Of a stretch of DNA of 21,786 nt, positions 1 to 19,706 are shown one piece after another. Source of the DNA: a virus. Under the pieces are notes generated by a model that was given only the letters and a program-made list of their open reading frames with translations, had not been told where the DNA came from and did not search any database. The stretch is from the IMG/VR virus record IMGVR_UViG_3300009146_000045, positions 1-21,786 of that record, one strand, 5' to 3'. A program made the translations under genes and the position numbers. How positions within the stretch are numbered: the first letter of the stretch is position 1; each line of letters starts with the position of its first letter.

Positions 1-3000
1 CGACATGAGTGCCCTTGGCAGCACCCACCGAATGCAAAAGCGGCTTGGCAATCGTGGGTACCAGTGCATTGGCCAGGAAACCTATCTCCTGGTTGGTCAT
101 CCCGAAGGTCTTCCAGTCAGGGTTGTCACTCCGCCTGTTGGCAGCCGCAGCTCTACTGGCAGGAGAGGCCTTGTTCTGCTTAAGCCACTTGCTGGTACCA
201 GTGCGCTTTCCCTGCTTGTCTTTTACAACCCAGAGGAAGTGACTTGTCAGCAGATCCAGGAATCCTACGGTTCCCCGTCCCGAGTCCTTAAGCTCACCAT
301 CTGCTCGACCTACATAATTTCTATACAGCCTCCTGGCTTCCTCAGGACTGAGGTCAGCCTTCTTGGCATCCCTGAAGAAGAGCACGAAAGGATCTTCCCT
401 GGAACCAGCAGCCTGAGCCCTGACTACGTTGTTGGCTCGCTTGATCAGCTCCTCATTCATTTCCCTGGCCAGGGACACAGCCAGGTTCTTGTACCCTACC
501 CCATAGTTACCCTTGGTCATCGGGTCCTTCATAAAGGACCTTAAAATATCAACCCAATTCTTCTTGCGCTCCTGCCTGTCATGAGGCGCTACAGACCCAC
601 CATCCTGCTCACTGACCTCGTCACCACCAGAAGTGAGCGGCTCATCCTCTGCCGTAATCACAGGACCGAGCTCACGCGCCACGTCCATGCCCATCCCGAA
701 CTGAGCCAGGAAATGCACCATACCAATAACGCGCTTCCGCTCATTCTCGGTAAGGGTGGGACTTCTTGACAGCCGCTCGAGGATATCACTCAGGGCTGTA
801 CCACCAACCTGGTAGGAATCCAGCTTGTCAACAAGATTACGATAGGTTGACAGACCCTCATGCTGCGCCAGCTCCAGTGCTTCCAGTCCCTCGATCATGA
901 ACCCGGACCTGACCATCTGGGCCACCTGGTCAGCCGTAAACTCTCCCTGGCTGTAGAGCATGATCGAGTTGGACACGCCGTTCACGAAGCCATCAGCCTC
1001 GAGGTAAAGCGCCGTCTCGAAGCTGCTGGGATCCTTGCTGCTCTTGTATTGAGCCCAACTCAAAAGCGCATGCAGCGCCAGCTCCGTGTTCTGGTCTTCC
1101 AGACCCTCCCTGAGAGCGTCCACGAAGCCTGTAACACCCTGAGCCCCACCAGGCAGCTCTCCCGTCTCCAGGAAGCCCTGCAGGCTCCCTGTGACGCCTT
1201 CCAGACGCTCCAGGATCCCCTCGACCTGCTCGATCACCGCGTCGTTCGTGCCGAGGTGGATCTTCACCCCGAGCGCCTGACCGATCGCCAGCTTGAAGAG
1301 CTGCATGTGCAGCCCCTTCGGATCACTCAGATCCAGCGTGCTCCAGGTCGGCAGTGACACTTCCCTGACCAGCTTGTCAGCCTGCTCGTTGCTGGGTCCC
1401 ACCATCTGCAGGCGACCAACCGAGTTGATCACGTAGTCCCTGTAATACTCTACCTTCTCCGGAGTTATCCCCAGCTTTGTCCCTGCTTGTTCTACAGTAT
1501 TGGAGATGATCTCCATCGTCGCCAGACCCCTGGCCACCTGGTCGAGCTTGCTCCTCTCGCTGAGAATGACGTTTTCGTTGGAAGCCTCTGCTACCTTGGG
1601 ATCACCAACATTGGCGATACCCTTGAAGCGAGCCAGACCCTGGACACCCAGAGCCCTGTAGAGATTCCGCATCGTCGTATTGAAGCGCGTCGGGACATTC
1701 CTGGCCCTGGTTATGACCTCCTGCTCCGTGGGAGTGAGAGGAACCTCTCCTCTCCTGCTCCTATGGGTTACAGGCTTGCTCGGGGCTTCCCCAATATAGA
1801 TACCATGGACGCCTGTCTCAGGATCCACCACGAAAGCATCTTCAATGGCATTGGGGTATCGACCCAACTGCTTGAACATTTCATCCAGACGCTTGGTACG
1901 ATCACTCCTGTTATCAGCCTCATTACCCAGAGGCGCTCTCTCGGGTCCTACCGAAAAATTATACAAGGGTGTCCTGGTCTCATTGCGTCCACTATTATAG
2001 TGGATGATATAAGTCTCAGGAGCATTCTTATCGATGGTCACTCCTGTCCGGCTATCCTCAGCTCCATCCTGCAATATGTATGTATGGCGCGTAAGGATGT
2101 CCTTGAGAGGACCATTGGGATCCTGGGTCAGATCCAGCAGGTCCTTGGCCAGCGATTCCGCTATGCCATCCACGTAGCCCTGAAGGGCTCCCGTCTTGGC
2201 GCTCAGTCCCCAGAACTTGTTGATCTCATTCCCGATCAACCCACTAATAGTGGACAGATCCAGTCCCTTGCTGAAAACCGACACCTGACTAGGAGTCACC
2301 TTGTCCTCGTCGATGCCCAGGGTAGCCCCCACCCTTTTGGCATCTATCTTGGCAGAGCTGTTCCGGTTGGCTCCAATCCACTGGACCATGGCCAGAACAG
2401 CAGGACCCAACAGCTCAGGCGCAAACGCCACAGAGGTCGTGCCGTCCTCGTTCTCGGTGACGTTGACCAGATTAAAAGTCTTGCCATTGGTCCATGCATT
2501 GATCGGCTTACCATCAGCATAATATTTGGAGAAGTTCCGACCCTTGGTCCAGTTGCTCTGCATCCTGTCCTGCAGGACCTTGTAAAGCCTTGTCGCAAGG
2601 GTGTCGCTGAACGCCTTCCAGTTATCGGCAACCTCCTGGTCAGGCATGGACCTGCTGGCAGCTCCCTTGCCCTTTTCCAACTTATTATAATCTTCGTAGC
2701 TGGTGAATATCTCACCCACCCAGGTCAGGAGCTTCTTGCCCCCTTCCGTGATCTGGGCATATCGGGTCTTCGCTTCCTTGGGATAGGTGAACGACTCATC
2801 CAGCTTGTTGCCCTCACCCTCGGTCTCCATCAGGTTAGGGTATCTGCCCTTTACCGATGGGGACGTAGGATCCGCTTCTACAACCTCTGCAACCTCAGAT
2901 TCTGTAACTGTTTTAGCTCCAGCTCGCTTGGCAAGTTCCGCCCGGATGCGGTGATACTCTTCACGATCCTCCCCCTGTAGCCCTTCGCTCTGGCCCTGCT

Positions 3001-6000
3001 GATAAAGCGCGTCAGCTCTTTTCTGGAGAGCCACTGTGTCGGCTTCGGCTACAGCCTTGTTCAGCTCAGCATCGTAAGCCTTCTGCCATTCAGCCTTTTG
3101 CTCAGCTGTGAAGACGGACGGGGGACCACCCTTGTACCTTCTGCGCGCATCTTCCCGACCAAGCTCAGTCGGGGACTTGGGGACATTGTCGTCCTTGGCC
3201 GCAGCCTCCGCAGCGTTCTCAGCACGCGCCTGCAGCACATCAGGATCGGTAGTTTCGGACGTCGACGTTTTAGTCGCAGGAGCAGTCGCCTTCAGGCGAT
3301 CAGCCAGCGCCTGCAACGTGCTCGCTGCATCGCGTGCAAGAGCTTCCTTGAGCTGAATCAGTGTGCCAGTACCAAGCCGCTGCGCGAAGGGCGACTGGCT
3401 GAACCAATCCAGGCTAAACTTACCACGCGCGAGCTGCGCCTGCGCCGCCTCGATGCTGATAAGTGCTTCTTCGTGATCAAGCGGCACATCATCAGGTTTT
3501 GTCGGATCAGCGTTGGTCGCTTCGTAAGCCGCACGCTGTACCGCAGAGTTAGTTTGAGTCCTGGAAGGAGTGGATGCAGGCGTAGGAGTTGGTGTCGGCG
3601 TAGGACTGGGCGCAGGCGTAGCCGTGGAACCAGTGGAACCAGGAGCTCTGCTCTTCCCGACAAACTTATTATACCTGGCCTGGATATCCTCGAAGGTACC
3701 AGACAGACCAGCAGGCAGCTCATCCACCTGCAGGTTGCCCTGCTTCAGTATGGCCTTCAGCTTGGGATGCGCATCAGCCAGCTTGTTATAGGTGGCTGCC
3801 ATGGCAGCAGCTTCCCTGGCCTCCGCCTGCATCAGATTTACAGACTTTTCACTTTTCACATTGAGATGCCGCGTCCCAGTCAGCATCTGATCTCCAGTCT
3901 TTGCCAATGGGCTCCAAGCTTTATAGGGCTTCTTCTCCGAGGTATGGGCACCAGGATTAGCCTTGATATCATTATATGATTCTGTCCAGGCTCTAACCTT
4001 ATTATTCTGTCCCTGGGTAAACCGCTGTAGCCTGCCCATCAATGCAGCAGCTTCCTTGAGCCTCCCTTGGCTCATCAGCTGATGCACTCCTGTTATATAA
4101 TTATGAAGACTCTTGTACCGACTGTTCTTCTCATCCTTGTTGCCGAAGATTTCCGCATCGACTTGCTGGGGATCCAGATCAGTCTTACCCACCACCTTCT
4201 GGTCAAAATCTGTCATCCCCTGCTTGACCGCACCCATGGTGACAGCGCTCTGCAGAGCTGCTTTTTCGGGCTTGCTCAACTGACCCGGCTGTCCAGGCTT
4301 CCTGGTTCGGGCCTGCTCCAGAATGGCTCCAGCTTCCTCGGAACTTACCGAAGCCGGATCAACCAGTGCCCTGGCGATAACCTGGGAATCACTGGTTCCA
4401 CCCTCCTGGGCTTCCCTCTGGGCTTTAAGATGATCCCGTACACTCTGGTTCAGGTCCAGCATCTCCCTGGAACCAACAGCCATCCTGAAGCCCTTGCGAA
4501 CTTCACTTATACCCTGACTGAAATTATTCCTGATTTCCTCCAAAGCTTCAGGCGTAGCATCCTCACCCACCTGGCTCCTGATATATTGGTCCAACAGCTG
4601 CTTATCACCAAAATGCCGATGCAAGGTATCAGCATTATCCATCTGACCATACATTTCCCGAAAAGCTGTAGCCAGCTCCTCAAGGGTTCCTGCATCATCT
4701 TCTGTACCCAGCTTATCCTTGAGAGCCTGGACCTTATTATAGGCCTCTTCAAACCTGTCCGGGTCAAACTCCTGACTGGCTCTCTCCAACCGAGCCAACT
4801 GATCAGTACCAGCATCACCCTCGTCGTCCTGGTCGAGCGCCTGTTCCTGCTGGCTCTGCTCCCGCTGGAACTGTGTCTCCACTGCCTCAAGCAACTGGTC
4901 CGGATCCATACCCGTGGCCGCCAGCTCATCGGCGATCTCTTCCCGACGTGCCATATCCCTGGCAGCACGCTCGGGTCCAGCCATCTGCTGACCAAGATCA
5001 GCCACCGAAGCGACGCCCATGGTCGCCAGCCCACCCCGGATGCCTGCAAGGCCTCCAGCGACCGTGCCGTTCTCTGCCTCGAGCTCTTCCCTAGTACGAG
5101 CACCCCGGCCTGCGAGTCTCTTCACAGCGCCCACAGCAGCCTTCACAGGCTCCTTGATGAGCGCCTGGGGGGCAGACATCACCCCGGCTGCACCAAAGCC
5201 TCCCAGCGCGCCTGAAACGGCTTCCTCGCCCACTCCCTCGGCCAGTCTCTGCTCGGGGTCGTACTCCTGGAGGATGGCGTTGGAGATCAAAGCTCCCGAG
5301 GTGCCCTGCGCCGTCTCCTCGACCGCTTCCTTGAGCGGATCCACCACGAGACCTCTGCCAATGGCCCTGCCAAGAGCACCTCTGCCGGTACCTCTCGCAG
5401 CTACCCGCTCAGCCACCGTGGCCAACGGATTGACCTGGAAACGGCTGACACCAGCACCCAGGATCGCTGCTGTCGGCCCAACGATCGCTGCAGCCGTTAG
5501 CCCTGCTTCCCGTGCCAGAATTTCCTTGGCTCGGTCAGGAGGTATGTCCTGCTCGAGCAGCTCCCGGTACTCGGGAGAATTCTTGAGCAGATCGTTGTGC
5601 TCCATGTCCATGATTTCACCATAGGTCTGGGAGAAGGCTCCTCCGCCTTCACCCAGGCCAATGGCAGCAGTTCCAACGATTCCCCTGGCCCACTTCCCGG
5701 CTTCCCTGACACCTCCTGCCTTGAGCGCCTTGACCAGCAATGGCCCACCAAACTTCATGCCGCCTCTGGCCAGGCCACCGATACCACCAAAGGAACCAAA
5801 GGCATTGGCCACGAACTCAGGTATCTCACTAGGGTACCTGGCAAAGTCCTTGACGGTAGACAGGGTATCTCTGCCCACCTCACGCAGACCTATGGTAAAA
5901 CCATCTACGCCCTTGGCCCTGTAGGCTTCAGCCGTGTTGACGTTGTCGATGGCCTGGAGATCATCGATCTCGGTCTGCGCCCGCTTATGCGCCCGCCAGG

Positions 6001-6541
6001 CATCAGACTTCAGGTTATCGTCGATACCCTTGGACAGGATATTGTTGATCGCATGGACCTTGGGCGTGACATTCGTACCCAGAGCCTTGTCCCACAGGCT
6101 GGTGCTAACCCCGGTCACGCCACCCGCTATGCCCAGCAATCCCTGGAGAGCACCCCCACCCAGATCATCAAGCTGATCGTTGAAGAAGCCTATCCGCTCA
6201 TGGGCCCTGTCGACCTTGTAGCTTCTGTCACCCGTGGTCTGACCCCGAGCCAGCTGGGTCCCTACCTCGGGACCATACTTGAGGATCAGCTCGTTCGGGC
6301 TCAGATCCCGCATGTCCTGAAACACAGGATCATCGATCGTATTACCTGCTCCCGAGTCCCTGGCAGCAGTCGCAGACCTGCCCAGCCTGACAAGCTGCTC
6401 ATAGTCCAGCCTGGCTGGGTCTACCGTAGCCTGTGGAGCTATAGGCGTGACCGGAGGGGCAAGCCTGTCCCGCACCGTATCCAGAACAGACTGGACAAGC
6501 TCAGCTGCTGACGCTCCAGAGGAACCAGAAGGAGGAGGCAA
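1..6541 (-). CDS. Giant virion-associated single-subunit RNA polymerase (N4 gp50-like), partial, runs off left edge
   Basis: One minus-strand frame stays open from 6541 to the left edge (2180 codons) with no stop in the window, so the C-terminus is missing. Seen: NSVGR (R1710) at the place of the TxxGR motif, DGFVNGVSN (motif A, D1850), and R-SFM-K-DPMTKGN-YG (motif B, R2001, K2005, Y2013), which fits the T7-type R-x3-K-x6/7-Y-G rule. Motif C with the second catalytic Asp must lie beyond the edge. A Pro/Thr-rich linker (about residues 966-1000) separates an N-terminal region with Gly/Ala-rich stretches (about 125-360) from the rest. Known: N4 packages such a polymerase in the virion and injects it to transcribe early genes from hairpin promoters. 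It is the last visible late gene, 15 bases after the muralytic-protein gene. There is no ATG near the 5' end. I chose TTG at 6541 because AAAGGA lies 8 bases upstream; the first in-frame ATG would be about residue 77. Family assignment is strong; the exact start is uncertain. Confidence 0.9.
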   Translation of the reverse strand, partial: MPPPSGSSGASAAELVQSVLDTVRDRLAPPVTPIAPQATVDPARLDYEQLVRLGRSATAARDSGAGNTIDDPVFQDMRDLSPNELILKYGPEVGTQLARGQTTGDRSYKVDRAHERIGFFNDQLDDLGGGALQGLLGIAGGVTGVSTSLWDKALGTNVTPKVHAINNILSKGIDDNLKSDAWRAHKRAQTEIDDLQAIDNVNTAEAYRAKGVDGFTIGLREVGRDTLSTVKDFARYPSEIPEFVANAFGSFGGIGGLARGGMKFGGPLLVKALKAGGVREAGKWARGIVGTAAIGLGEGGGAFSQTYGEIMDMEHNDLLKNSPEYRELLEQDIPPDRAKEILAREAGLTAAAIVGPTAAILGAGVSRFQVNPLATVAERVAARGTGRGALGRAIGRGLVVDPLKEAVEETAQGTSGALISNAILQEYDPEQRLAEGVGEEAVSGALGGFGAAGVMSAPQALIKEPVKAAVGAVKRLAGRGARTREELEAENGTVAGGLAGIRGGLATMGVASVADLGQQMAGPERAARDMARREEIADELAATGMDPDQLLEAVETQFQREQSQQEQALDQDDEGDAGTDQLARLERASQEFDPDRFEEAYNKVQALKDKLGTEDDAGTLEELATAFREMYGQMDNADTLHRHFGDKQLLDQYIRSQVGEDATPEALEEIRNNFSQGISEVRKGFRMAVGSREMLDLNQSVRDHLKAQREAQEGGTSDSQVIARALVDPASVSSEEAGAILEQARTRKPGQPGQLSKPEKAALQSAVTMGAVKQGMTDFDQKVVGKTDLDPQQVDAEIFGNKDEKNSRYKSLHNYITGVHQLMSQGRLKEAAALMGRLQRFTQGQNNKVRAWTESYNDIKANPGAHTSEKKPYKAWSPLAKTGDQMLTGTRHLNVKSEKSVNLMQAEAREAAAMAATYNKLADAHPKLKAILKQGNLQVDELPAGLSGTFEDIQARYNKFVGKSRAPGSTGSTATPAPSPTPTPTPTPASTPSRTQTNSAVQRAAYEATNADPTKPDDVPLDHEEALISIEAAQAQLARGKFSLDWFSQSPFAQRLGTGTLIQLKEALARDAASTLQALADRLKATAPATKTSTSETTDPDVLQARAENAAEAAAKDDNVPKSPTELGREDARRRYKGGPPSVFTAEQKAEWQKAYDAELNKAVAEADTVALQKRADALYQQGQSEGLQGEDREEYHRIRAELAKRAGAKTVTESEVAEVVEADPTSPSVKGRYPNLMETEGEGNKLDESFTYPKEAKTRYAQITEGGKKLLTWVGEIFTSYEDYNKLEKGKGAASRSMPDQEVADNWKAFSDTLATRLYKVLQDRMQSNWTKGRNFSKYYADGKPINAWTNGKTFNLVNVTENEDGTTSVAFAPELLGPAVLAMVQWIGANRNSSAKIDAKRVGATLGIDEDKVTPSQVSVFSKGLDLSTISGLIGNEINKFWGLSAKTGALQGYVDGIAESLAKDLLDLTQDPNGPLKDILTRHTYILQDGAEDSRTGVTIDKNAPETYIIHYNSGRNETRTPLYNFSVGPERAPLGNEADNRSDRTKRLDEMFKQLGRYPNAIEDAFVVDPETGVHGIYIGEAPSKPVTHRSRRGEVPLTPTEQEVITRARNVPTRFNTTMRNLYRALGVQGLARFKGIANVGDPKVAEASNENVILSERSKLDQVARGLATMEIISNTVEQAGTKLGITPEKVEYYRDYVINSVGRLQMVGPSNEQADKLVREVSLPTWSTLDLSDPKGLHMQLFKLAIGQALGVKIHLGTNDAVIEQVEGILERLEGVTGSLQGFLETGELPGGAQGVTGFVDALREGLEDQNTELALHALLSWAQYKSSKDPSSFETALYLEADGFVNGVSNSIMLYSQGEFTADQVAQMVRSGFMIEGLEALELAQHEGLSTYRNLVDKLDSYQVGGTALSDILERLSRSPTLTENERKRVIGMVHFLAQFGMGMDVARELGPVITAEDEPLTSGGDEVSEQDGGSVAPHDRQERKKNWVDILRSFMKDPMTKGNYGVGYKNLAVSLAREMNEELIKRANNVVRAQAAGSREDPFVLFFRDAKKADLSPEEARRLYRNYVGRADGELKDSGRGTVGFLDLLTSHFLWVVKDKQGKRTGTSKWLKQNKASPASRAAAANRRSDNPDWKTFGMTNQEIGFLANALVPTIAKPLLHSVGAAKGTHV
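500..1426 (-). other. Polymerase core motifs of the giant RNA polymerase (TxxGR-like, A, B)
   Basis: The TxxGR-like motif NSVGR is at 1412-1426, the motif A Asp codon at 992-994 (sequence DGFVNGVSN), and motif B from its Arg (539-541) to its Gly (500-502). Spacing is 140 residues from the TxxGR Arg to the motif A Asp, and 4 then 8 residues from the motif B Arg to its Lys and Tyr. I recall about 135, 4 and 8 for the N4 mini-polymerase. The frame of all three motifs agrees with the start at 6541. Confidence 0.85.
3545..3646 (-). other. Pro/Thr/Ser-rich interdomain linker in the giant RNA polymerase
   Basis: Residues about 966-1000 are almost only Pro, Thr, Ser, Ala and Gly, including an alternating Thr-Pro run. 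Such sequence is typically extended and disordered. It divides the N-terminal region of about 960 residues from the region leading to the polymerase core. N4 also has an N-terminal domain of about 1000 residues before its polymerase domain. Confidence 0.75.
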
Positions 6542-6549
6542 GAGACATA

Positions 6550-6555
6550 TCCTTT
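6550..6555 (-). promoter_or_regulatory. Ribosome binding site deciding the TTG start of the giant polymerase
   Basis: The minus strand reads AAAGGA here, 8 bases before TTG at 6541. An out-of-frame ATG at 6548 is only 1 base from this site and opens a 15-codon frame, so it is a poor start. The stop of the preceding gene is just upstream. Confidence 0.6.
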
Positions 6556-6556
6556 A

Positions 6557-9124
6557 TTATCTACGAAGCCGATCAATCTGAGCACGTATGGCATTTGCCT
6601 GCTGCTGATAATAGACTCTGTCTTTACCAGATAGCTGTCCGCTACTGAGTCGATTCTCAGCCGCTCTCAACTGACGATCAAGCTCATTCACTCTCACAGA
6701 ATTAGGTCCATGCTCTGCCTGAGCCCGCTTGCCAGCATCATTGGCACGGGTAAGTGCCCTGCTAACCGCACCTGGACCAGCAGTCTCACTCTTGATCCGC
6801 TGCAAGGTAGCCAGGTTACGGCTTATCCTGGCCTTCTTGCTTTCATACTCAGCTGTAGCTGCTTTCCACCCAGCCTCATTATTCAGATATTCTTTACGAT
6901 TGGGATATTCCTTGGCTATGCTATTAAATCTCCTGTTCAGGTTTTGGATATCCCTATTCAGCCTGTCTGGATCCTGCTTGTAGGCATTAAAGGCCTGAGC
7001 ATCAGCAGAGGGAACCGTACCAGCAGGTGCCCTGGCAGGAGCAGCTCTGGGCGCAGCCCTAGCCGCAGGAGGAGCAGCCGCTGGTTTAACGGGTGTAGCC
7101 GCCTTGGCCGTACCACCCCCCAGTCCCACGGTTTCCAGGATGGAAGCTATGATTCCTGGCTCAGGCTTTGCCGGTTGGAAGTCCCGACCCTGTCTCGCAC
7201 CTATCTGGCCCTGCTGGGTCTGGGACTGGTTGACCGCCCTGTCAGCCGCAGCAACCTGGTTCTCGAGAGCCTTTAGTGTTTCAGGAGGTAGACCACGCAC
7301 CCGACCCAATCTCAGCTGCTCCACAGCCTGAGCCCTGAGAGCTATATCTCTCTCCGTTACTGCTTTCGAGGTACCTAGTGCTGCCTCCTCACCGATAGCT
7401 CCCTGCTGCCCTCCGGCAGCAAAGAAGTCTATCATCTGACCCATCCTATTTTCATCAAAATAGGGCATACCGGTTATACCAGTACGCTGCGACTGCTTCA
7501 GTATATATCCTGCCTGCTCATCCGTAAGATCAGCGTTCCTGCCTCTGGCTCTGGCAGCTTCCGTGTACCTCTGCCTGACACCAGCCAGCTGATTTTCAAT
7601 AAAATTAACATCGCTGAAGTTAAGCCCCCAGTTCTTACCTCCCTCTATTTCAGTGGCAATTGCAGTAATGCCTCTTTCACTACCCACCACCTTGGGATCG
7701 ATAAAACCCTTGTAGAGATTTCCCAGCTCACCCGTGGCCTGCCGGGTTGCCACATCGGTGATGGTCTTTGCCGCTGCCTCGGCGGGCAGGTCACGCCTGG
7801 CAGGAGTGGTAGCAGTAGCATCAGCACCAGCATCCCCTGTCGATGCCGTAGCATAATCAGGAGAAACGTTGCTTTCCCGATCCAGAATAATCTTACGGGC
7901 CTGTTCCCAAGGCATCTTACCATTGTACATGGCATTGGCATCAGCCTGGGTAAGACCTGCCCATTCATTCCTCAGACCTGCAGCACTGCCTTCCTTGAGC
8001 CTGTTCTCATAGAGACGCTTGCCCATAGCCTCATGAACGTCTGCAGACCTGTAATCCTTGTTTACCCAATCATCGCCCCAGATTTGCTTGGCAACTCCTT
8101 CCATAGTCTTACCAACAATCTGGTAAGGACCCATGGCACTGGAAGCCACACCTGCAGCATTGATCTTTTTTGCAAACTGACGAGCCTGACCCAGATTCGT
8201 TACCTCTGCAGGCACTTCCGCAAAACCACCAGCTCTGGCCTCATAGTTCATAATGCCAAAGGGATCACCAGTACGGGTGCCTCCACCACCACCCCCACCA
8301 GTGGCTGCTCCACCACCTGCAACACCACCCCCAGTGCCACCTCCAGCACCACCAACGCCTCCACCTCCGCCAGCGCCACCACCACCTGCTCCTCCGGCTC
8401 CAGGAAACCCGGAATAATACTGCATAGTCATCATGGCAGTCTTGGGATCCATGCCTCCACGGATCAGCTCTCGCATGGCAGATTCCGAGCCGCCTTCCAG
8501 GTAGTCGACACCCGACTCCCACATCTTGGCAGCCGCAGCCCTGGCATCCGTGTCTCTTACAAGCTCCTCGGCCTTCAACCTGCGATTGAGCCGTGCGTCC
8601 TCAAACTCTCCCACCCCCGAGGCTGCATCCAGCGTACCCTTCAGAGCCGAAGCCAGGTCCCTGGGATTGAGCCTGCTCCTGATCTCGGGAGGCATGCTCG
8701 CAATCCGCGCGGTGGCCTCATCGAACTTGCCCTGGCCAGCCAGAAGATTGGCTTCACCCAGGGCCGGTCCAGCTTCCTGGAAAGCCCGGCTGTAGCCCTC
8801 GGTCCGGTTGATGTCCTCGCGCTGCAGCTGCTGGTCCGAGAAGTTGAAAGCCTCGAGCCTCGCCTTGGGCGTCAGGTACCGCGAGTCCAGTCCCAGGTTG
8901 GGATCAGCCGTCAAAGCCGCCTGCAGCTCATCGCCCTTCTGGAAGCGCATAGCGCTCTCGAGCAGGCGATTGGTCTCCAGCTCCTGCCGATCGTCGCGCA
9001 TGCCCTCCACGCCCGTCTGAGCGCCTTCCAGGGCCTTTCCAATCAGGTCGGCTGCCAGCTTGTTGCCGTAGAGAGCCTGGCTGAAGTCAGGCGCGTCGAC
9101 GTTCCTCCAGGTGATCTGGGCCAT
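6557..9124 (-). CDS. Virion protein with lysozyme/lytic-transglycosylase-like domain (N4 gp51 position)
   Basis: 855 aa. Residues 1-240 are mainly helical and charged. Residues 241-284 are an almost pure glycine/alanine spacer. Residues about 288-415 look like a phage muramidase fold: NYEA with candidate catalytic Glu295, then SSAMGPYQI (328-336), resembling the xxAxGxYQ signature of soluble transglycosylase and lambda-R-type enzymes. An Ala/Pro-rich stretch lies at about 685-725 and the C-terminus is charged and helical. The likely role is local cutting of peptidoglycan during DNA entry, as for other internal or tail-associated virion hydrolases. The start ATG has TAGGAGG 8 bases upstream, and that TAG is the stop of the previous gene. 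The position between the gp52-like gene and the polymerase matches N4 gp51. The enzymatic call rests on motifs only. Confidence 0.75.
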   Translation of the reverse strand: MAQITWRNVDAPDFSQALYGNKLAADLIGKALEGAQTGVEGMRDDRQELETNRLLESAMRFQKGDELQAALTADPNLGLDSRYLTPKARLEAFNFSDQQLQREDINRTEGYSRAFQEAGPALGEANLLAGQGKFDEATARIASMPPEIRSRLNPRDLASALKGTLDAASGVGEFEDARLNRRLKAEELVRDTDARAAAAKMWESGVDYLEGGSESAMRELIRGGMDPKTAMMTMQYYSGFPGAGGAGGGGAGGGGGVGGAGGGTGGGVAGGGAATGGGGGGGTRTGDPFGIMNYEARAGGFAEVPAEVTNLGQARQFAKKINAAGVASSAMGPYQIVGKTMEGVAKQIWGDDWVNKDYRSADVHEAMGKRLYENRLKEGSAAGLRNEWAGLTQADANAMYNGKMPWEQARKIILDRESNVSPDYATASTGDAGADATATTPARRDLPAEAAAKTITDVATRQATGELGNLYKGFIDPKVVGSERGITAIATEIEGGKNWGLNFSDVNFIENQLAGVRQRYTEAARARGRNADLTDEQAGYILKQSQRTGITGMPYFDENRMGQMIDFFAAGGQQGAIGEEAALGTSKAVTERDIALRAQAVEQLRLGRVRGLPPETLKALENQVAAADRAVNQSQTQQGQIGARQGRDFQPAKPEPGIIASILETVGLGGGTAKAATPVKPAAAPPAARAAPRAAPARAPAGTVPSADAQAFNAYKQDPDRLNRDIQNLNRRFNSIAKEYPNRKEYLNNEAGWKAATAEYESKKARISRNLATLQRIKSETAGPGAVSRALTRANDAGKRAQAEHGPNSVRVNELDRQLRAAENRLSSGQLSGKDRVYYQQQANAIRAQIDRLRR

Positions 9125-9136: not shown

Positions 9137-9799
9137 CTACTTGCCGAATTTCTCGAGCCGGTTCTCGTCCACCCAGCTCGACTGGTCCGTGCCTTCCACC
9201 GCTCCCCTAGTCCTGCCGATGTCACTGATGCGGCGGTTATATTCGGACGTCTGGTTGTTGAGGTTGGCGGTAGCAAACTTCTCCTGGAACTTCTGCGCCC
9301 GCTTGGCCAGTCCCAGCTGCTTGAGCCCCATCCCCAGACCAGCGATAGTCTGCAGCCCACCCAGGATGGTACCGATCTTCTGGTAAGGATCCATCTGGCC
9401 AAAACCAAGGAAGCCTCCACCAACCCTGGATCCTCCAGGACCTCCCATGAGGTTACCCATGTCCAGGTTCTGACCATCAAACTCAAACATGCTATCTGTA
9501 GGATTAACATCCCCGAACTTACCAAAGTTGAAAGCCTTACCAAAATCAAACATACTGGTAGGATCGGATCCCTTTAACAGAGACCAGATATCAGGCACCT
9601 GATTGGTGATATTGAACCCTCCCGCAGGAGAAGCTGGATTCCCTAAACCAAAATCATCCGGAGCCGTATTAAACGGCGACGGGAAAGGACTCTTACCCCA
9701 ACCTCCGCCCCAGGAGCTCTGCTGCGGTACACCTCCTCCTGCGACATAATCGCTGGCCGACATATTATCGTAAAATCCAGAGCCATAAGCCATAGCCAT
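9137..9799 (-). CDS. Small virion-associated protein (N4 gp52 position)
   Basis: Up to 220 aa. The N-terminal 75 residues are rich in Gly, Ser, Asn, Pro and aromatic residues and look disordered. From about residue 130 a GG-rich helix (GTILGGLQTIAGLGMGLKQL) leads into a charged helix (LAKRAQKFQEKFATANLNNQ). This helical half resembles small internal or tail-associated podophage proteins. The first ATG (9799) is nearly on top of AGAGGA; the second in-frame ATG (9793, two codons later) has a better spacing of about 8 bases and may be the true start, giving 218 aa. The gene begins 5 bases after the preceding stop and ends 12 bases before the hydrolase gene. Its function is not known from sequence. 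Confidence 0.75.
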   Translation of the reverse strand: MAMAYGSGFYDNMSASDYVAGGGVPQQSSWGGGWGKSPFPSPFNTAPDDFGLGNPASPAGGFNITNQVPDIWSLLKGSDPTSMFDFGKAFNFGKFGDVNPTDSMFEFDGQNLDMGNLMGGPGGSRVGGGFLGFGQMDPYQKIGTILGGLQTIAGLGMGLKQLGLAKRAQKFQEKFATANLNNQTSEYNRRISDIGRTRGAVEGTDQSSWVDENRLEKFGK

Positions 9800-9804: not shown

Positions 9805-12039
9805 CTAATTCAGATCTGTTCCAGGCAAGGTATTAGAAACAGTATACTGTGGGAATTCATAAAGAGAATCCATGGACAGATCGATGATATCAGACCCTAC
9901 CATCAATGTCCTTTCAAGAAACTCTCCAGGCAGCTCTCCGATGGAACCAACGAAGGAACCAAGGGAATCCACTATACCAAACAGGTCCCCAAAGATATTC
10001 CCCGTTATCGACATCGGATTCAGCAGCGTGTCCCCGAAGCCTCCCAGAGCCGCATAGGCCTTCTGCAGCTCCTGCATCTTGCGGCCATACTCCTCGGCTG
10101 CTCGCTGGGTCTCAAGCACCGTGTCATGCACTTCAGCAGCGATCATCCTGGTCGCCAGCTGGCCTGTAGCCTCGGTAAGCCGCAGCAGGTTGTCCGCCTT
10201 GAAGAAAGCCTCGAAGCCGACCGAGAAGGTTCCTGTAGTTGCCAGGTTGGATAGCCCCTGGGTCACGGCGATCGTAGCCAGGAAGCCGATGATCGTCCCC
10301 AGCTTCTCGCCAAAGATCGCCACAGCACCCTTGGTGATGAGGCTGGCCACCAGCATGGAACCAAAGGTGACAACCAGGGTCCCGATGATCAGCGCTGCAA
10401 CGCCCGTCAGCCCCAGAAGTGCACCCGTCGTAGCTGCCAGCTTGACCAGGCCCGGTGCCAGCTGCGGCGCAAACAGCACCACGGCAATGACAACCAGAAC
10501 AGCCAGGACCTTAAGGAACTTACCCAGGAAGCTCTGCTTCTTGACCTCATAGGTGTTGATAACGATAAAACAACACTGGGTCGTAAGCTGGGTAGAATCC
10601 ACCAGAGGCATATCCCTGAAAATGGGAAAATGCAAAGGTAGCAAGAAACCAGACTCATCCGCATCCAGCAGAGCATCAACTGCTTTGGTTTCTACGTTCT
10701 TATCCCTGTAGATATAATTCCTGTGAACCAAACCAGTTACAGCTACAGCTCTCCAGCTGGTGTTGGTCTGCTGCCAATAGACTGTTGTCACATCTCCTGC
10801 CTGGACCAGCCAGATCGCGTCGGCTTTGGCGGGATTCCCCGTGTCGGCATTGGTCAGTACGCCGGTTCCCTCGGTCTCGGTTATGTCGAGCCAGGAAACC
10901 TGCATCCAGAAATTGCTGGGAGATGTCTCTGCTGCCAGGCCTACAGCCTGGGCAGTCCTGATCTCGACGATCTTCTCGGCGGCAGTGGTACCACCCAAAA
11001 GAGCCTCCGTCCTGTCCTGGAGAAACTTGAAGAACCTGAATATATATTTCCTCGAGGACTGCTCAAGAGCATTCAGGGGAACCCCGAAAACCACATAGGC
11101 ATAATCAATATCATCCTTGTCCGGATGCTCCTCCAGTTGCTGGATGATCTCGTCCAGGTTACCCCCCACAGCCTTCTTGTAAGCCGTCTTGGACTGCTCG
11201 TAGGCGTCGGCGATGTGGGTATCCGACAGAAACTGATTATCCAGCCTTATAGGAATAAATGGATAAAACTCTGCCTCCGAGATGGTAGCATCTTCTATGT
11301 TATCGTCGATATCATCATTGCCTGAACCAACCAGATAGATATCTATGTAGGGTCCTTCCAGCACGCCTGGTGTAGTCGCCCGCTCCAGCTGGAACACCGA
11401 GTAGACGTAGCTATCCTCTCCTGTGGTGTCATAGTCGGGAGCTCCCACCACGTCAGCCGGATCGAAGCTGGCAACCGCAGGTGTCCCACTTCCGATGTCT
11501 ACATAATATACCTCGATCAATCCGGTGCTGATTATATAATCTGCGGACCATACCGAGTTATAAGGCGTAGGGGCTGAGCCTGCTTCCTGGATCAGCCAGG
11601 CTCCAGCCCACCAGCCTGGGTTGGCCTTGTCCAGCTTGATCCCCTCGAGGGGCCCAGGTGGTGGAGGCGTAAACACAGCATCGTCATTGGCTGGATCCAC
11701 AGTGGGATCCAGGACAGCAAGCGCCGTCAGCACCTGCTCTTCCATGATAGCTTCGGTGACATTCACCGCCGACTGCAGCTTGGCCGTAGGATACCCTACG
11801 GTGTCATAGTTGGTGCCACCACCCAGGTCGTCCCTGAGACCCCACCTGAAGAAGCTTCTCCAGGTCATGCTGGGACCAGACAGATAGGATTTATTCAGAT
11901 GTGGGGACAGGCCATCCTTCTTGCGGGAAGACCCAAGATTCATGGCATTGGAGAGAATGGTACTACGTAGAAAGTTAGGCCGTGTGTTGAAATCACCCGC
12001 CAGGTTGGTCAGGGTCGAAGCTACCAGAACCGTAGACAT
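9805..12039 (-). CDS. Large virion protein with a hydrophobic membrane-type segment (N4 gp53 position)
   Basis: 744 aa from ATG at 12039; the frame extends to a TTG at 12048, which is less likely. The N-terminus has a conserved-looking block (NLAGDFNTRPNFLR, then LSPHLNKSYLSGPSMTWRSF). The middle part is acidic and beta-rich. Residues about 505-597 contain several consecutive strongly hydrophobic stretches (for example VLAVLVVIAVVLFAPQL and GVAALIIGTLVVTFGSMLVA), unusual for a soluble structural protein. About 150 mostly helical residues follow. I infer a tail or ejection protein that inserts into a membrane or lines the DNA path. It lies between the gp54- and gp52-position genes and has a short 5' gap of 21 bases. 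No enzymatic motif was seen. Confidence 0.75.
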   Translation of the reverse strand: MSTVLVASTLTNLAGDFNTRPNFLRSTILSNAMNLGSSRKKDGLSPHLNKSYLSGPSMTWRSFFRWGLRDDLGGGTNYDTVGYPTAKLQSAVNVTEAIMEEQVLTALAVLDPTVDPANDDAVFTPPPPGPLEGIKLDKANPGWWAGAWLIQEAGSAPTPYNSVWSADYIISTGLIEVYYVDIGSGTPAVASFDPADVVGAPDYDTTGEDSYVYSVFQLERATTPGVLEGPYIDIYLVGSGNDDIDDNIEDATISEAEFYPFIPIRLDNQFLSDTHIADAYEQSKTAYKKAVGGNLDEIIQQLEEHPDKDDIDYAYVVFGVPLNALEQSSRKYIFRFFKFLQDRTEALLGGTTAAEKIVEIRTAQAVGLAAETSPSNFWMQVSWLDITETEGTGVLTNADTGNPAKADAIWLVQAGDVTTVYWQQTNTSWRAVAVTGLVHRNYIYRDKNVETKAVDALLDADESGFLLPLHFPIFRDMPLVDSTQLTTQCCFIVINTYEVKKQSFLGKFLKVLAVLVVIAVVLFAPQLAPGLVKLAATTGALLGLTGVAALIIGTLVVTFGSMLVASLITKGAVAIFGEKLGTIIGFLATIAVTQGLSNLATTGTFSVGFEAFFKADNLLRLTEATGQLATRMIAAEVHDTVLETQRAAEEYGRKMQELQKAYAALGGFGDTLLNPMSITGNIFGDLFGIVDSLGSFVGSIGELPGEFLERTLMVGSDIIDLSMDSLYEFPQYTVSNTLPGTDLN

Positions 12040-12060
12040 AAGACCCAACCAATCTAAACA

Positions 12061-12963
12061 TTAGGGCGTAACCTGCAGAGGTCCAAAACCATTGTTCACC
12101 TTGATCACCTCGAGCACATCATCAAGGTTGGCATTGCTGAAACCTTCAGGTGGCAACAGTCCCTCGTCGATGGTCTTCTGGGTAATCCAGGCATCGATCC
12201 AGAGCCTGCCAGATCTCACTTCTGCGTCGCGTTTGTAGCTATCGATCTGCTGGTTGTAGAGCTGGATCTGGGTATCGGCCACATCCATCTGCTTGTCCTG
12301 ATACTCTTTCTGCTTCCCGAGAATACCTAGCACAGGTGTGCCATCAGACCTGGTGTCCAGGGTCTGGGCTCTTGCGGCCTCGTACTGCTCCGGCAGCAGG
12401 TAATCGAGCTGGAACTTGCCCGCGCAGTAGGCCACCTCCTGGGTCATCAGCTGCGCCTTGGAGAGGGCGTAGCGGGCCTTGGAGTTGAGCGCCATGAACT
12501 GGGCTTCAACCAGCTGGTACTTGGCGATCTCGAGCTGTGTGAGCGCCACCAGGGCCTGCACCTGGGCCTGCTGCGCCTGCCAAAAGGCCTGGTCCCGACC
12601 CAACAGGAACTGCACCGCAGAGGACATGGAGTTGGCGCTGATGGCGATGTAGGCTTTGGTATATTCAGCCCCGGTAATGCGCCCCTTCTCGAACTCCACC
12701 TTGAGGTGCGCCAGATGCCCATCCATGATGGCATCGAACGTACCCTTGCCACCAACGATCCGCTCCGTAAGAGCTTCATTGGTCAAGGGTGTAACCGCAC
12801 CATAGATCGGATCGGTAGGATCAAACGGAAACTGCCACTGAGGATCATCGAAGTCTATTACCGGGATGTCAAAACTGACATCCGAGGTAAGACCATCCAT
12901 CAGGTCATTGGCATCTTCCGTGATGTCACAGGTGAACTCCGAGGGAGGAACCAAAGCCGCCAT
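12061..12963 (-). CDS. Helical virion protein (N4 gp54 position)
   Basis: 300 aa. After an acidic N-terminus, residues about 90-225 form long Ala/Gln/Leu-rich helices (for example QAQQAQVQALVALTQLEIAK) and suggest a coiled-coil or helical-bundle protein. The C-terminus contains a Pro-rich turn and NGFGPLQVTP. The ATG overlaps the stop of the upstream gene by one base (TAATG), which points to translational coupling. GGAGG lies 11 bases before the start. Place in the order and size fit the N4 gp54 family of structural proteins that I recall; a role as an internal or neck/tail-tube protein is inference. Confidence 0.75.
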   Translation of the reverse strand: MAALVPPSEFTCDITEDANDLMDGLTSDVSFDIPVIDFDDPQWQFPFDPTDPIYGAVTPLTNEALTERIVGGKGTFDAIMDGHLAHLKVEFEKGRITGAEYTKAYIAISANSMSSAVQFLLGRDQAFWQAQQAQVQALVALTQLEIAKYQLVEAQFMALNSKARYALSKAQLMTQEVAYCAGKFQLDYLLPEQYEAARAQTLDTRSDGTPVLGILGKQKEYQDKQMDVADTQIQLYNQQIDSYKRDAEVRSGRLWIDAWITQKTIDEGLLPPEGFSNANLDDVLEVIKVNNGFGPLQVTP

Positions 12964-13760
12964 TACAGCATCTGCCTCCCACCAGTACCAACCGTCGTGT
13001 CACCCCTGGACAGCTGTGCCTGAGCCAACTGATCGATCTCAGCCTTGCTCAGGGGCGGCAGCACCTCGAGATTGAACTCCGAAGACAGATATCTTTCAAC
13101 CTGCTCCGTGTTGGTCCGGTCATTCTTGGTGGTCTTGATCACCTGGTACTTCTTGTTCTTGAGCATCTTGAACATGCAGTAGGGGACATGCCAGCCATTG
13201 GCCCCTGCCTCCCCATAGGGAATAAACCGCTTCACCGCCCCCAGCAGCTTGTTGCTGAAGGTAAAGATCTCTCCATGGAGATCATTTTTGGCCGGGTTCA
13301 AATTCGTGATGCGGCACCGGATGAGCTTCATCTCCCGCTGCGTCAGCCTCTTCCTGAACTGCCCCTGGGCCAGCTCCATGCGCTGTTTCTTGGAGAGCTG
13401 GCGCTCCTTGCGGAGCTCCTCCCAACGCTGCGGCTTGAGGTCGTCATCCAGGAAATCATCGAGTCGCAAGACCTCCTCGACCTGGGCCTGGGCAGCTTCG
13501 ATCAGGTCATCCTCAACCTCAGGGTAATCACTAAGGTCGTCAACCTCATCATCGTTCTCACCAGGATCATAGGAGACGTCCCCGTCTTCATCCTCGTCTG
13601 GATCCTCAGGCCCTTCTCCCTGCGCCCTGAGCTTCTCGTTGATGCGATCCCTGAGCGTCTCGATCTTGATATTCCCAACGATGGGAATACCCATAAGCTT
13701 GGCCCGCTGCTTCAGCATCTCAAGCTCGGTCGCTTCATTTTCCAAATCAGAACGACTCAT
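12963..13760 (-). CDS. Conserved N4-like late protein with acidic segment (gp55 position)
   Basis: 265 aa. Residues 1-45 are charged and helical (SRSDLENEATELEMLKQRAK). Residues about 46-90 are dominated by Asp and Glu (EGPEDPDEDEDGD). The C-terminal half is compact and mixed: a block with CRITNLNPAKNDLHGEIFTF and then WHVPYCMFKMLKNKKYQV. Acidic segments of this kind occur in DNA mimics, chaperones and scaffold-type proteins, but I cannot assign a function. AGGA lies 9 bases before the ATG. It is the first gene after the capsid-proximal hairpin, so its expression may be lower than that of the capsid gene. Confidence 0.75.
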   Translation of the reverse strand: MSRSDLENEATELEMLKQRAKLMGIPIVGNIKIETLRDRINEKLRAQGEGPEDPDEDEDGDVSYDPGENDDEVDDLSDYPEVEDDLIEAAQAQVEEVLRLDDFLDDDLKPQRWEELRKERQLSKKQRMELAQGQFRKRLTQREMKLIRCRITNLNPAKNDLHGEIFTFSNKLLGAVKRFIPYGEAGANGWHVPYCMFKMLKNKKYQVIKTTKNDRTNTEQVERYLSSEFNLEVLPPLSKAEIDQLAQAQLSRGDTTVGTGGRQML

Positions 13761-13787: not shown

Positions 13788-13811
13788 CCCCTCCAGGTTT
13801 CCCTGGAGGGG
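13788..13811 (-). terminator. Hairpin terminator or processing site after the capsid gene
   Basis: A perfect 10-bp inverted repeat has left arm 13788-13797 and right arm 13802-13811. On the minus strand the loop is GAAA, a stable GNRA tetraloop. It starts 17 bases past the capsid stop in the direction of transcription and is followed by TATATATTATAG rather than a clean T-run. A partial terminator that lets some transcripts continue into the gp55-position gene is likely; an RNA-stabilising 3' hairpin is the alternative. Confidence 0.75.
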
Positions 13812-13827: not shown

Positions 13828-15030
13828 TCAGAGAGGCGCAAGCGTCTTGATCACGGCAATGCGTTCCGGCCTCTTGGCCAGGAACCCATAGTACCACTTG
13901 ATCGAGCTGAACCCGGTCTCGCCATAGGGATCATTGCGATCAGCCGTCTCACGTCCCGGCATCTTGGTCATGATGGTGAAGTTGACCGTCTTCCCCTGGC
14001 TCTGGAAGCCGATGGTCGAGAAGCTGTCATCACCCACGATCAGGATGGGATAGATATTATAGTTACCCCCCGACTCGCGATAACCAGGATTGGTCGTAAC
14101 CGCCCCACCGGCATCTGCCCAGTGCAGCATCTCGGGAACCTCGATGACCCGGAAGAAGCCGATCGAACCCACCTCGCCATTCAGGATCGTGCCTGCCTCG
14201 GCGTAATGCTGGATCGGAATGAACGCCGGGTTCTCGAAGCTGTCCTCCATGGTCCGCAGCAGCGGAGTCAGCTCCGAGCCAACATACATGATCCGGGCCG
14301 AAGGCAGCACTCGGGTATCGATGTTGCGAGACCCGCTGATGATCTTGGTGTGTCTCGGGGTCCGGTTGTCGGTCAGGATCTGGTCCACCCGCATCAGGTC
14401 CGCGTAGTCGACCACCGAAGGCGTAGCGCCCTCGCCCGTCATCTCGCTGTCCTGGGTGGCCGCACCAGCGTAGTGGATGACACCCGCGCTGTTCAGCAGG
14501 TCGATCTGCAGAACGGCCTCAGTGAGCTGCACAGCGCCATTCAGGAGCTCTCTGGACAGATGGTCCATGAGCATGTCGTCCGAGTCGAAATCGATGCTCT
14601 CCTGGGTGAACTCCATGAAGAAGCCAAACTTGTGGAGCGTACCCGACCGCATGATGCGGCTGAAGCCGACACGGTTCACCCGTCCGCCATTCTCCGTCAG
14701 CGCAGGCAACCGGGCCGTGATGGTCCCGATGTCCTTGCTCGAGCCGTAAAGGTTGCCGTTGACGATGGCCACGCCAGCCGCATCGATGCCCTGGTCGTTG
14801 ACGTTACGATCATCCAGCAGAGGGATGTATTCGTAGATCCTGATCTCCTTGCCCATGTGCTTCGGCATATCGATCACCGGAGCCAAAGGCATGAAATACT
14901 GATCTTTCCTCGCCGTGATGATCGCCTTCTTGAGGTAATGGAAGGTGCGCATCTGCTCCGAGGTGTTGGGAGCCAGCTGACCCGCATCAATGGTCGAAGG
15001 AGTCGTATTCGGTGCATTATAGTTAAACAT
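13828..15030 (-). CDS. Major capsid protein (N4 gp56-like)
   Basis: 400 aa, close to the roughly 401 aa I recall for N4 gp56. The sequence matches the N4-like capsid family as I remember it: an N-terminal FNYNAP, then [75 protein letters not shown] and the central [10 protein letters not shown]. It is expected to have the HK97 fold and form the icosahedral shell. AAAGGA lies 7 bases before the ATG, a strong ribosome site that suits the most abundant virion protein. The scaffold-like gene is immediately upstream and the hairpin at 13788-13811 immediately downstream. Confidence 0.93.
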
Positions 15031-15068: not shown

Positions 15069-16235
15069 TCACAGTCGGCCTTCCATCTGCTTGAGGAAAT
15101 CATCATCCGACATTTCCAGCGGATTCTTGAATTCCTCGCGAGTGCCACGAGAAGATTTGGAGGAGCTAGTCCCCTTCAATCGTCGATCAACATCCGGGTC
15201 AGAGCTGACCCTCTTTTGCTGAGACGGAGCAATCCCTTTATCCACTACCCTCGACCTGGGAGCATCGCCCGTTTTATGGGCCGGATTCCCATTGCCATTG
15301 GCAGGAAACATCTGGTTGCCCAGCTCCTGATAGGCCTGAAGGAAAGACGTAGTCTCGGGAATCTGACCCAAGGTCCTAAGCCTCTCAACCTCATCAGCTA
15401 TCTTATCATATACACCATTCAGCCGGTGAGTGTGGATGATCTCCATCACGCCTGGATGTTTCCAGATCATCCCCTTGCTTTCGGCATCCCAGGTACGATT
15501 GATGATCGCTATCGTTTCGGAACCTCCATCAGTGTCATTCAACTGATCGAGAGCTTCCCTGAAGCTGGTCTCTTCATCGCTTACCTGGTAATAGCCCGGC
15601 TCATAGGTGGGATTGTCCGCATCTCCGATATCCATCGGGTCGATGCCGGATTCCTTCACCAGCTTCCGTATAGCTCCCTCATTCTTTTTTTCCAAGTCGA
15701 TAAGATAACTGAGCTTGTCCTCATCCAGGAGCTCATGCTTCTCCAGCATGGTCAAGACCCGCTTATAGGGCTTGAGCCGCTGCATGGTCTTGGCGTAGTT
15801 GGCTCCCTTCTGCATCAGGGAGATGGCTTCCTCGGGCGTCTTGATCTCTATCGTCCGGCCATTGGCCTTGAACGGGGCCATGATCTGGCCATAGAGCTTC
15901 TTGTAATCCACCGCCTCCGAAGGCGCATCAGCCTTAGCCTCAACAACCTCCTCCTCAGCGTCATCCTTAGCCAGCCCTGGATCCTTCCTGGGTGGCTCAA
16001 CCTTCTCCGGTTCACTCTCTTCTAGTTCACCCCCACCATCATCCTCGTCCTGAGCCTCATCCTCCTGCTGCTCGTCCTGCTCAGGCTCCTGCTCTCCGTC
16101 CTCCTGCTTCTCCTCCTTCTCTGCCTTCTTTGGATCATCAAGCCCATCGTACCGGCTTGGATCCAAACCCAAAAACTCCTCATCAGACATCACCAGGATG
16201 TCTTCTCCCATCACGGTCTCTGCGTCGGGGTTCAT
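15069..16235 (-). CDS. Acidic scaffold-like capsid assembly protein (N4 gp57 position)
   Basis: 388 aa. Residues about 31-100 are Glu/Asp/Gln-rich low-complexity sequence (EKEEKQEDGEQEPEQDEQQ). The middle is helical (GRTIEIKTPEEAISLMQKGA). Residues 305-370 are Ser/Lys/Arg-rich and probably disordered. The same short motif is present near both ends: MSDEEFL at 16-22 and MSDDDFL at 375-381. A gene directly before the capsid gene, acidic, with disordered regions and a short helical end, is typical of phage scaffolding proteins, so I infer that role. The ATG overlaps the preceding stop (ATGA), so translation is probably coupled. No protease motif was seen. Confidence 0.75.
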   Translation of the reverse strand: MNPDAETVMGEDILVMSDEEFLGLDPSRYDGLDDPKKAEKEEKQEDGEQEPEQDEQQEDEAQDEDDGGGELEESEPEKVEPPRKDPGLAKDDAEEEVVEAKADAPSEAVDYKKLYGQIMAPFKANGRTIEIKTPEEAISLMQKGANYAKTMQRLKPYKRVLTMLEKHELLDEDKLSYLIDLEKKNEGAIRKLVKESGIDPMDIGDADNPTYEPGYYQVSDEETSFREALDQLNDTDGGSETIAIINRTWDAESKGMIWKHPGVMEIIHTHRLNGVYDKIADEVERLRTLGQIPETTSFLQAYQELGNQMFPANGNGNPAHKTGDAPRSRVVDKGIAPSQQKRVSSDPDVDRRLKGTSSSKSSRGTREEFKNPLEMSDDDFLKQMEGRL

Positions 16236-16624
16236 GCATTGTCTCCCCGATCCAGGACATGGACCACATTATCCCTGTAATCCTTGTGATCCTCTTCCAC
16301 CCGAGCCTGGGCCAGCCTGCCCTCGAGATCGTCCAAATCGTCATCGGCGTTCTCACCCAGCTTGATCTGGATCGACAGAAACCTCTTCAGGTGTCCTGCC
16401 GCCTGGGCCATCAGCATGGCGTCGTCACGACGCTTCTGATCGAGAGCAGGATCTCCTGCCATATGAGCCAGACGAGCACACTCATCCACCACGAAGAATT
16501 CCATGATCAGCTTCTTGAAGTCAGGATTCTCCGTCAGCCTCAAGGCCATCTTCCGGCGTTCGATCTGCGCCTGAAGTTTCTCTTTCTGGCTCTCAAGCTC
16601 AAGAATGTCAGATGTAATATACAT
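16232..16624 (-). CDS. Small coiled-coil protein next to portal (N4 gp58 position)
   Basis: 130 aa, helical throughout. Residues 8-30 (LELESQKEKLQAQIERRK) form a short coiled coil. A conserved-looking central block follows (ENPDFKKLIMEFFVVDECARL), and the C-terminus is acidic (GENADDDLDDLEGRL). The start lies 9 bases after the portal stop with AGGA 7 bases upstream, and the stop overlaps the next start by 4 bases (ATGA). Small proteins in this position occur beside podophage portals. A role in portal or scaffold assembly is inference from position only. Confidence 0.75.
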   Translation of the reverse strand: MYITSDILELESQKEKLQAQIERRKMALRLTENPDFKKLIMEFFVVDECARLAHMAGDPALDQKRRDDAMLMAQAAGHLKRFLSIQIKLGENADDDLDDLEGRLAQARVEEDHKDYRDNVVHVLDRGDNA

Positions 16625-18958: not shown

Positions 18959-19058
18959 TACCCGCTCCTGGTGGACAGCACCCTATACCCCTTATAAACT
19001 TTCCAGATAAACCAGGTTTTTCAAACCAACCATCTTTCAGGAAAAGGGGCTCCACTCC
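18959..19058. promoter_or_regulatory. Divergent intergenic control region
   Basis: 100 bases separate the portal start (leftward) from the 131-aa gene (rightward), so promoters for both directions probably lie here. On the plus strand TGGACA (18972-18977) and TATAAA (18993-18998) resemble sigma-70 elements, but the spacer is only 15 bases. Facing the portal, the minus strand reads GGGGTATA at 18984-18991, an octamer also present upstream of the gp55-position gene. An inverted repeat is described separately. No start site can be fixed from sequence. Confidence 0.4.
19009..19027. repeat. Small inverted repeat, 5-bp stem with 3-nt loop
   Basis: GGTTT (19015-19019) and AAACC (19023-19027) enclose TTC; on the minus strand the loop is GAA. 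A second AAACC at 19009-19013 could pair with the same GGTTT, giving two exclusive pairings. The 5-bp stem and 3-nt purine loop on the template strand for rightward transcription match the format of N4 virion-polymerase promoters, though the central loop base is A, not G. It may be coincidence. Confidence 0.35.
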
Positions 19059-19065
19059 ATGAGCC
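19048..19065 (+). promoter_or_regulatory. Possible hairpin over the start codon of the 131-aa gene
   Basis: GGCTC (19048-19052) can pair with GAGCC (19061-19065). The 8-base loop holds the first two bases of the ATG and the third is in the stem. In mRNA this could limit initiation. The stem is short, so this is weak evidence. Confidence 0.3.
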
Positions 19066-19454
19066 ATAAAGCCAAAAACCTAGCAATTCAATCATCCCCA
19101 GAATCCGGTACCCTATCCGACCGTGTGGTCTACGTTCCCTCCCTCCGCTACATCCGCGAAGGCAACACCTATATCCCCAGCGTAGATATCTCCTCCGCAA
19201 AAGCCTATGGTCAGATCCAGTACATGACCACCCCAGGCAACGGCTTTGCCTCGGATGCAGCCGTCACCGAAGTCGAGAACCATGCCGACGATTCCCATGC
19301 CTCGGACCTGCTGATGATGGTCGGCGACATGATCCTGTTCGCTGCTGCCTTCCGGGTCATCGCCAACCGCTGGGGTCACGTCAACGTCCTGCGCTGGGAC
19401 AACCGCAGAATGTCCTACATCGAACAATGTGTGAAGGTAGGTTCCCATGGCTAA
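19059..19454 (+). CDS. Conserved hypothetical phage protein, 131 aa
   Basis: 131 aa, soluble. The N-terminal 60 residues carry DRVVYVPSLRYIREGNTYIP and SVDISSAKAYGQIQYM and look like a small beta domain. The middle is rich in His and Asp (VENHADDSHASDLLMMVGDM) and the C-terminus is helical and basic (FRVIANRWGHVNVLRWDNRR). I do not recognise a named family. A purine-rich stretch (GGAAAAGGGG) lies before the ATG, and a 5-bp inverted repeat covers the start codon. It is the first gene of the rightward cluster and overlaps the next gene by 8 bases, so the pair is probably co-translated. Confidence 0.75.
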   Translation: MSHKAKNLAIQSSPESGTLSDRVVYVPSLRYIREGNTYIPSVDISSAKAYGQIQYMTTPGNGFASDAAVTEVENHADDSHASDLLMMVGDMILFAAAFRVIANRWGHVNVLRWDNRRMSYIEQCVKVGSHG

Positions 19455-19620
19455 GTGGATCAAGAAAGCAATCAAGAATCCTGGTGCCCTGCGCAAATCC
19501 CTCGGCGTCAAAAAGGGTGAAAAGATTCCCGAAGCCAAACTCAATGCTGCAGCCAAGAAACCAGGCAAGCTAGGCCAACGAGCTCGACTCGCTAAAACCC
19601 TCAAGAAGATGCATAAGTAA
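19447..19620 (+). CDS. Very basic small phage protein, 57 aa
   Basis: 57 aa with 19 Lys or Arg residues, and highly structured in sequence: MAKWIKKAIKNPGALRKSLG, then VKKGEKIPEAKLNAAAKKPG, then RARLAKTLKKMHK. The pattern (WI-KAIK-PGALRK-LGV-GEKIP-KL-AA-RA-LA-TLK) is that of a small protein I recall from many unrelated tailed phages, usually annotated hypothetical. The charge suggests binding to nucleic acid or to an acidic partner, which is inference. The ATG lies inside the end of the upstream gene (8-base overlap), in a different frame. It is shorter than most ORF cut-offs and easily missed. Confidence 0.85.
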   Translation: MAKWIKKAIKNPGALRKSLGVKKGEKIPEAKLNAAAKKPGKLGQRARLAKTLKKMHK

Positions 19621-19648
19621 ACTTTCTCATTTCTTTTTGCTCGGGTGT

Positions 19649-19665: not shown

Positions 19666-19706
19666 AGCTGCTACTCCTTTGCTTAGGAACCAGAGAGAAT
19701 CACAAG

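Follow-up and report, generated by a model that had tools for sequence, protein, structure and literature searches.

A truncated N4-type virion RNA polymerase gene in the genome fragment of a distant schitovirus

Introduction

The question raised by the virus record IMGVR_UViG_3300009146_000045 is what is encoded by the very long open frame that runs off its left edge, and to what kind of virus it belongs. The window, that is, the whole stretch of DNA analyzed here, is the entire record of 21,786 bases and is classed as linear. A preliminary description had proposed that the frame encodes a virion RNA polymerase (vRNAP) of the phage N4 type. The vRNAPs are giant single-chain polymerases that traverse a narrow tail channel and act on arrival in the host, and N4 is the only phage for which we found solved vRNAP structures.

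Genomes of the Schitoviridae are 59-80 kb long, carry terminal repeats and encode three RNA polymerases. A vRNAP of ~3,500 amino acids (aa) is common to the entire family (PMC7650795), and 17 conserved proteins, including vRNAP, gp52, gp54, the major capsid protein gp56, gp57 and the portal gp59, have been listed for it (PMC7650795). In N4, the ejection proteins are gp50 (the vRNAP), gp51 and gp52, while gp53 plugs the tail and gp54 forms its tube (PMC12633501). The N4 mechanism has been described, including vRNAP ejection and its autoinhibition by the C-terminal domain (CTD) (PMC12633501), and so has the use of hairpin promoters in early transcription, in which the host gyrase and SSB take part (PMC4496689).

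Results

Inspection of the minus strand from 6541 to 2 showed 2,180 codons without a stop, in agreement with the preliminary description of an open frame of at least 2180 codons at the left edge, where the 3′ end of the gene is directed. The frame is open there because the contig itself ends, the window being the entire record, and the absence of a stop codon is thus an assembly end and no biological oddity. An exact 42-base probe taken at the left edge matched none of the other viral contigs, and hence gave no leftward extension. At the other end of the frame, the sequence points to TTG at 6541 as the likely start, preceded by AAAGGA at the distance given in Table 1; an ATG at 6548 is in a frame other than that of the vRNAP and closes after 15 codons. 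The stretch 6541-6555 (minus strand) also contains a TCC/TCT-rich run, beside the out-of-frame ATG and the TTG with its good Shine-Dalgarno spacing.

Table 1. Coordinates of the vRNAP frame, its parts and the neighboring genes in the window
Feature	Position	Strand	Evidence
vRNAP, N-terminal 2180 residues, N4-gp50 type, truncated by contig end	2..6541	-	PHROG, Pfam, PDB, fold
N-terminal domain (NTD), ~residues 59-987, aligns to N4 gp50 N-terminal (lipid-binding, ejected) domain	3581..6367	-	phmmer PDB
Pro/Thr-rich linker (from ~975) and extra stretch to ~1210, without N4 counterpart	2912..3619	-	alignment break
Polymerase (mini-vRNAP-like) domain, from ~residue 1211, ends before motif C	2..2911	-	phmmer, fold
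R1710 (N4 mini-vRNAP R424, VGR motif)	1412..1414	-	alignments
D1850, motif A Asp (N4 mini-vRNAP D559)	992..994	-	alignments
Motif B R2001, K2005, Y2013 (N4 R666, K670, Y678)	503..541	-	alignments
Shine-Dalgarno-like AAAGGA	6550..6555	-	~8 nt 5′ of TTG
gp51 homologue, 855 aa; ejection protein, periplasmic tunnel in N4	6557..9124	-	
gp52 homologue; ejection protein, outer-membrane channel in N4	9137..9799	-	
gp53 homologue; tail plug in N4	9805..12048	-	
gp54 homologue; tail tube in N4	12061..12963	-	
gp55 homologue	12963..13760	-	
gp56 major capsid protein, TIGR04387 N4-gp56 family	13828..15030	-	
gp57 homologue; tape measure protein by relatives' annotation	15069..16235	-	
gp58 homologue	16232..16624	-	
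gp59 portal protein	16634..18958	-	

The translated frame matched phrog_2206 of PHROGs, "virion RNA polymerase", over residues 55-2054 (E = 4.9e-174), and Pfam vRNAP_dom_2 above the cut-off (3.3e-10), while vRNAP_plug appeared on the frame only below the cut-off. When the whole frame was compared with the PDB by phmmer, N4 gp50 was matched in three collinear blocks including the NTD (E = 2.7e-85), and the polymerase part alone matched N4 mini-vRNAP (2.2e-52). A tblastn search returned 221 phage records, the matches listed being N4-like phages, and none exceeded 60% identity. Homology with N4 gp50 extends from the NTD into the polymerase domain, up to and including motif B. The frame covers the N-terminal ~60% of an N4-type vRNAP. 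Together with the predicted fold, the motif residues and the synteny of ten genes described below, the sequence families and PDB matches support the identification that had been proposed, and the frame is almost certainly a schitovirus gp50 gene, truncated where the contig ends. The length seen is at least 2180 aa; the remainder, expected to comprise motif C, the C-terminal ~1,300 residues and the autoinhibitory CTD (C1 HExxH, C2), lies outside the record.

The NTD alignment block covers query residues 59-1010 and N4 residues 50-967, and the alignment is then interrupted between query residues 1010 and 1211 (N4 967-1000), so that, compared with N4, ~200 extra residues separate the NTD from the polymerase. 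No Pfam family was found in this extra stretch. The linker together with the extra region contains GGPPSVFTAEQKAEWQKAY.

In an 11-way alignment of the window protein and ten reference vRNAPs, R1710, D1850, R2001, K2005 and Y2013 correspond to N4 gp50 R1421, D1556, R1663, K1667 and Y1675, respectively. The same five residues are invariant in 37 vRNAPs (R450, D590, R741, K745 and Y753 when the segment is numbered from residue 1261), and the preliminary description, which had picked them by motif spacing, was therefore right. We take R1710 to act in the TxxGR motif, D1850 in motif A and R2001/K2005/Y2013 in motif B, the roles that Kazmierczak and colleagues reportedly assigned to these residues in 2002. 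The T/D position of TxxGR is N1706 in the window vRNAP. The interval between motifs A and B is 153 residues, compared with 105-127 in 86 relatives, and its extra part was modeled with very low confidence (pLDDT ~40), as for disordered stretches. From the Arg of motif B to motif C, which is D951 in N4 and IFDG in relatives, the spacing is 251-329 residues at the 86 loci that have all three motifs. Since 179 residues follow R2001 in the window, motif C should be located ~75-150 residues past the left edge of the record. A first alignment had paired D2096 with D951 of motif C. This match is an artefact: in a better alignment, the final residues of the window fall at approximately N4 1785-1807, upstream of motif C.

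That the record ends before motif C, and that the vRNAP core has diverged to ~27% identity, would also fit a broken gene or a catalytically dead polymerase, the protein serving only as a giant ejection protein as T7 gp16 does. We consider this very improbable: the 2,180 codons contain no stop, the five tested polymerase residues are retained in a protein in which most positions have changed, and the extent of divergence is in keeping with that of the portal and capsid proteins (see below).

A model of residues 1261-2180 was obtained with AlphaFold2 using an alignment with 36 relatives (pLDDT 78, pTM 0.75). Foldseek placed N4 vRNAP structures at ranks 1-10 (E 2.9e-31 to 2.6e-27, TM 0.61-0.68; TM 0.67 for the top match, at E 2.9e-31), followed below by mitochondrial RNA polymerase (1.6e-6) and T7 RNA polymerase (RNAP) (4.2e-6). 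The fold comparison that had been suggested, in which the absence of a polymerase fold would count against the identification, thus matched both N4 vRNAP and T7 RNAP. Because N4-like vRNAPs were among the rows of the alignment used for modeling, the fold match and the sequence match are not entirely separate lines of evidence. The matches to T7 and mitochondrial enzymes might also be expected if another single-subunit RNAP, either the non-virion N4 RNAPII or a T7-type enzyme, had been fused to a long protein. However, these matches are ~25 orders of magnitude weaker than that to N4 gp50, the NTD matches N4 gp50 as well, the frame lies beside gp51, which is the position of gp50, and in N4, gp15 and gp16 form two distinct genes (~270 and 400 codons). 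The probability of such a fusion is accordingly close to negligible, and the frame is read below as an N4-type vRNAP.

The ten consecutive minus-strand genes from the portal (gp59) to the vRNAP (gp50) are homologous to those of N4 and in the N4 order, each matching its positional counterpart in N4 with a phmmer value of 1.8e-10 or better, so that the N4-like gene order claimed from inspection alone is borne out gene for gene. The same ten-gene order was found in ort11, phi1_146050, PB119, Axy24, Philippe, HN02 and others. Two further observations were made in this block. Residues ~281-423 of the gp51 homologue (7856-8284, minus strand) are predicted with high confidence (pLDDT 93) to fold into a helical domain, which bears a GPYQI motif. 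This mid-domain is present in many schitovirus gp51 proteins, with canonical transglycosylase-like motifs in Philippe, ZC03 and locus L023 and without them in N4. Its viral matches included gp51 relatives, a phage baseplate hub and, weakly (E 0.03), a SAR endolysin transglycosylase model, and a search of the PDB for a solved lysozyme fold gave no significant match. A perfect 10-bp hairpin, CCCCTCCAGG-TTTC-CCTGGAGGGG, occurs at 13788-13811 in the gap between gp55 and the major capsid gene, and is possibly a late-operon terminator or a processing site.

Six of the 17 conserved Schitoviridae proteins, namely the vRNAP, gp52, gp54, gp56, gp57 and gp59, were found as homologues, the others being outside the record or not seen in it. 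The best identities to known schitoviruses were ~59% for the portal, 72% for the capsid and ~27% for the vRNAP core. In a portal tree of 70 rows, the window formed a lone long branch (0.92) with no supported sister. A single-sequence search of IMG/VR gave no close vRNAP relative, a profile search reached 33% identity at best, and nothing closer to the window virus turned up when contigs of viral and bacterial genomes were scanned. One record, IMGVR_UViG_3300027675_000076 (L013; 5,862 bases), encodes a portal protein identical to that of the window and stops short of the vRNAP end; it presumably derives from the same virus. Divergence of the vRNAP relative to the portal or the capsid was within the range of other schitoviruses. 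A discordant origin of the vRNAP by gene swap was considered and rejected, as the vRNAP/portal and vRNAP/capsid divergence ratios are ordinary. The window virus is a distant new schitovirus whose vRNAP gene is ordinary for the family, and the picture of the family is unchanged; as the vRNAP is a hallmark of Schitoviridae, the window adds a distant member to a known group.

Beyond the portal, positions 18959-21786 of the plus strand, divergent from the portal gene, encode a Pam3_gp32-like protein, a DUF4326 protein, a PNKP-type HAD phosphatase and an HNH endonuclease. In relatives, lysis genes are located upstream of the portal on the same strand, whereas the window has divergent early-type genes there and no lysis genes adjoining the portal. 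The DUF4326 gene is homologous to N4 gp12, which is itself in the left-end early region of N4. Among 79 loci with enough sequence, the divergent layout was seen only in the window and its duplicate L013; three others (L004, L024 and L061) were flagged as sharing it, but have lysis-type genes there by annotation or inspection. Genes for lysis, tail fibre and terminase must be elsewhere in the genome or absent.

A scan of the 21,786-base window for N4-type hairpin promoters (stem, C-GNA-G loop) found none. The same scan on N4 detected sites at 90-102, 557-573 and 4546-4562, in the left-end early region beside the early genes, and a fourth match at 21168, which is likely due to chance. The early region of the window virus is probably outside this record. 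With respect to the N4 residues that contact the hairpin, W129 has a Trp counterpart, W1350, in the window vRNAP, R119 aligns with a Tyr, and the counterpart of K114 is ambiguous. The latter two positions suggest that promoter recognition may differ from that of N4.

Discussion

Homology to N4 and the neighboring gp51 and gp52 homologues lead us to infer that this phage packages and injects its vRNAP. By analogy with N4, several copies of the vRNAP would be packaged in the head and threaded through the tail and then the gp51/gp52 channel, and the NTD would anchor the protein in the cell envelope. The T7-like polymerase domain would recognize early promoters that gyrase supercoiling extrudes as DNA hairpins of the template strand and that host SSB keeps in this form. 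The first phage RNAs would be made by the vRNAP before any phage protein synthesis. Autoinhibition by the CTD would likewise be expected from N4.

A bolder reading is that the virus represents a deep schitovirus lineage in which the ~200-residue module between NTD and polymerase and the early-type genes divergent from the portal go with a route of early transcription and a promoter type unlike those of N4. We hold this only tentatively and consider it rather unlikely. A homologue with ~27% identity, an enlarged connection between NTD and polymerase and an early region that seems to have been rearranged would make it easier to tell which features of ejection, hairpin recognition and autoinhibition are essential and which are specific to N4.

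Compared with N4 gp50 (PDB 9pnr, 9pnq, 2po4, 3c2p), the window protein has the same arrangement of NTD, linker and T7-like polymerase domain in one chain, equivalents of R424, D559, R666, K670 and Y678, and gp51-gp59 neighbors alike in order and strand. It differs in that the core is ~26% identical, the polymerase motifs come ~290 residues later, the A-B interval is longer, the start is TTG, and motif C and the CTD are outside the record. The ten-gene block is also alike in ort11 (Huelvavirus), RHEph16 (Demetervirinae), PB119 (Pokkenvirus), Axy24 (Dongdastvirus) and unclassified IMG/VR schitoviruses. In comparison with these viruses, the window has a portal gene without adjoining lysis genes and stands as a lone portal branch, with at most ~59% identity in the portal and at most 72% in the major capsid protein.
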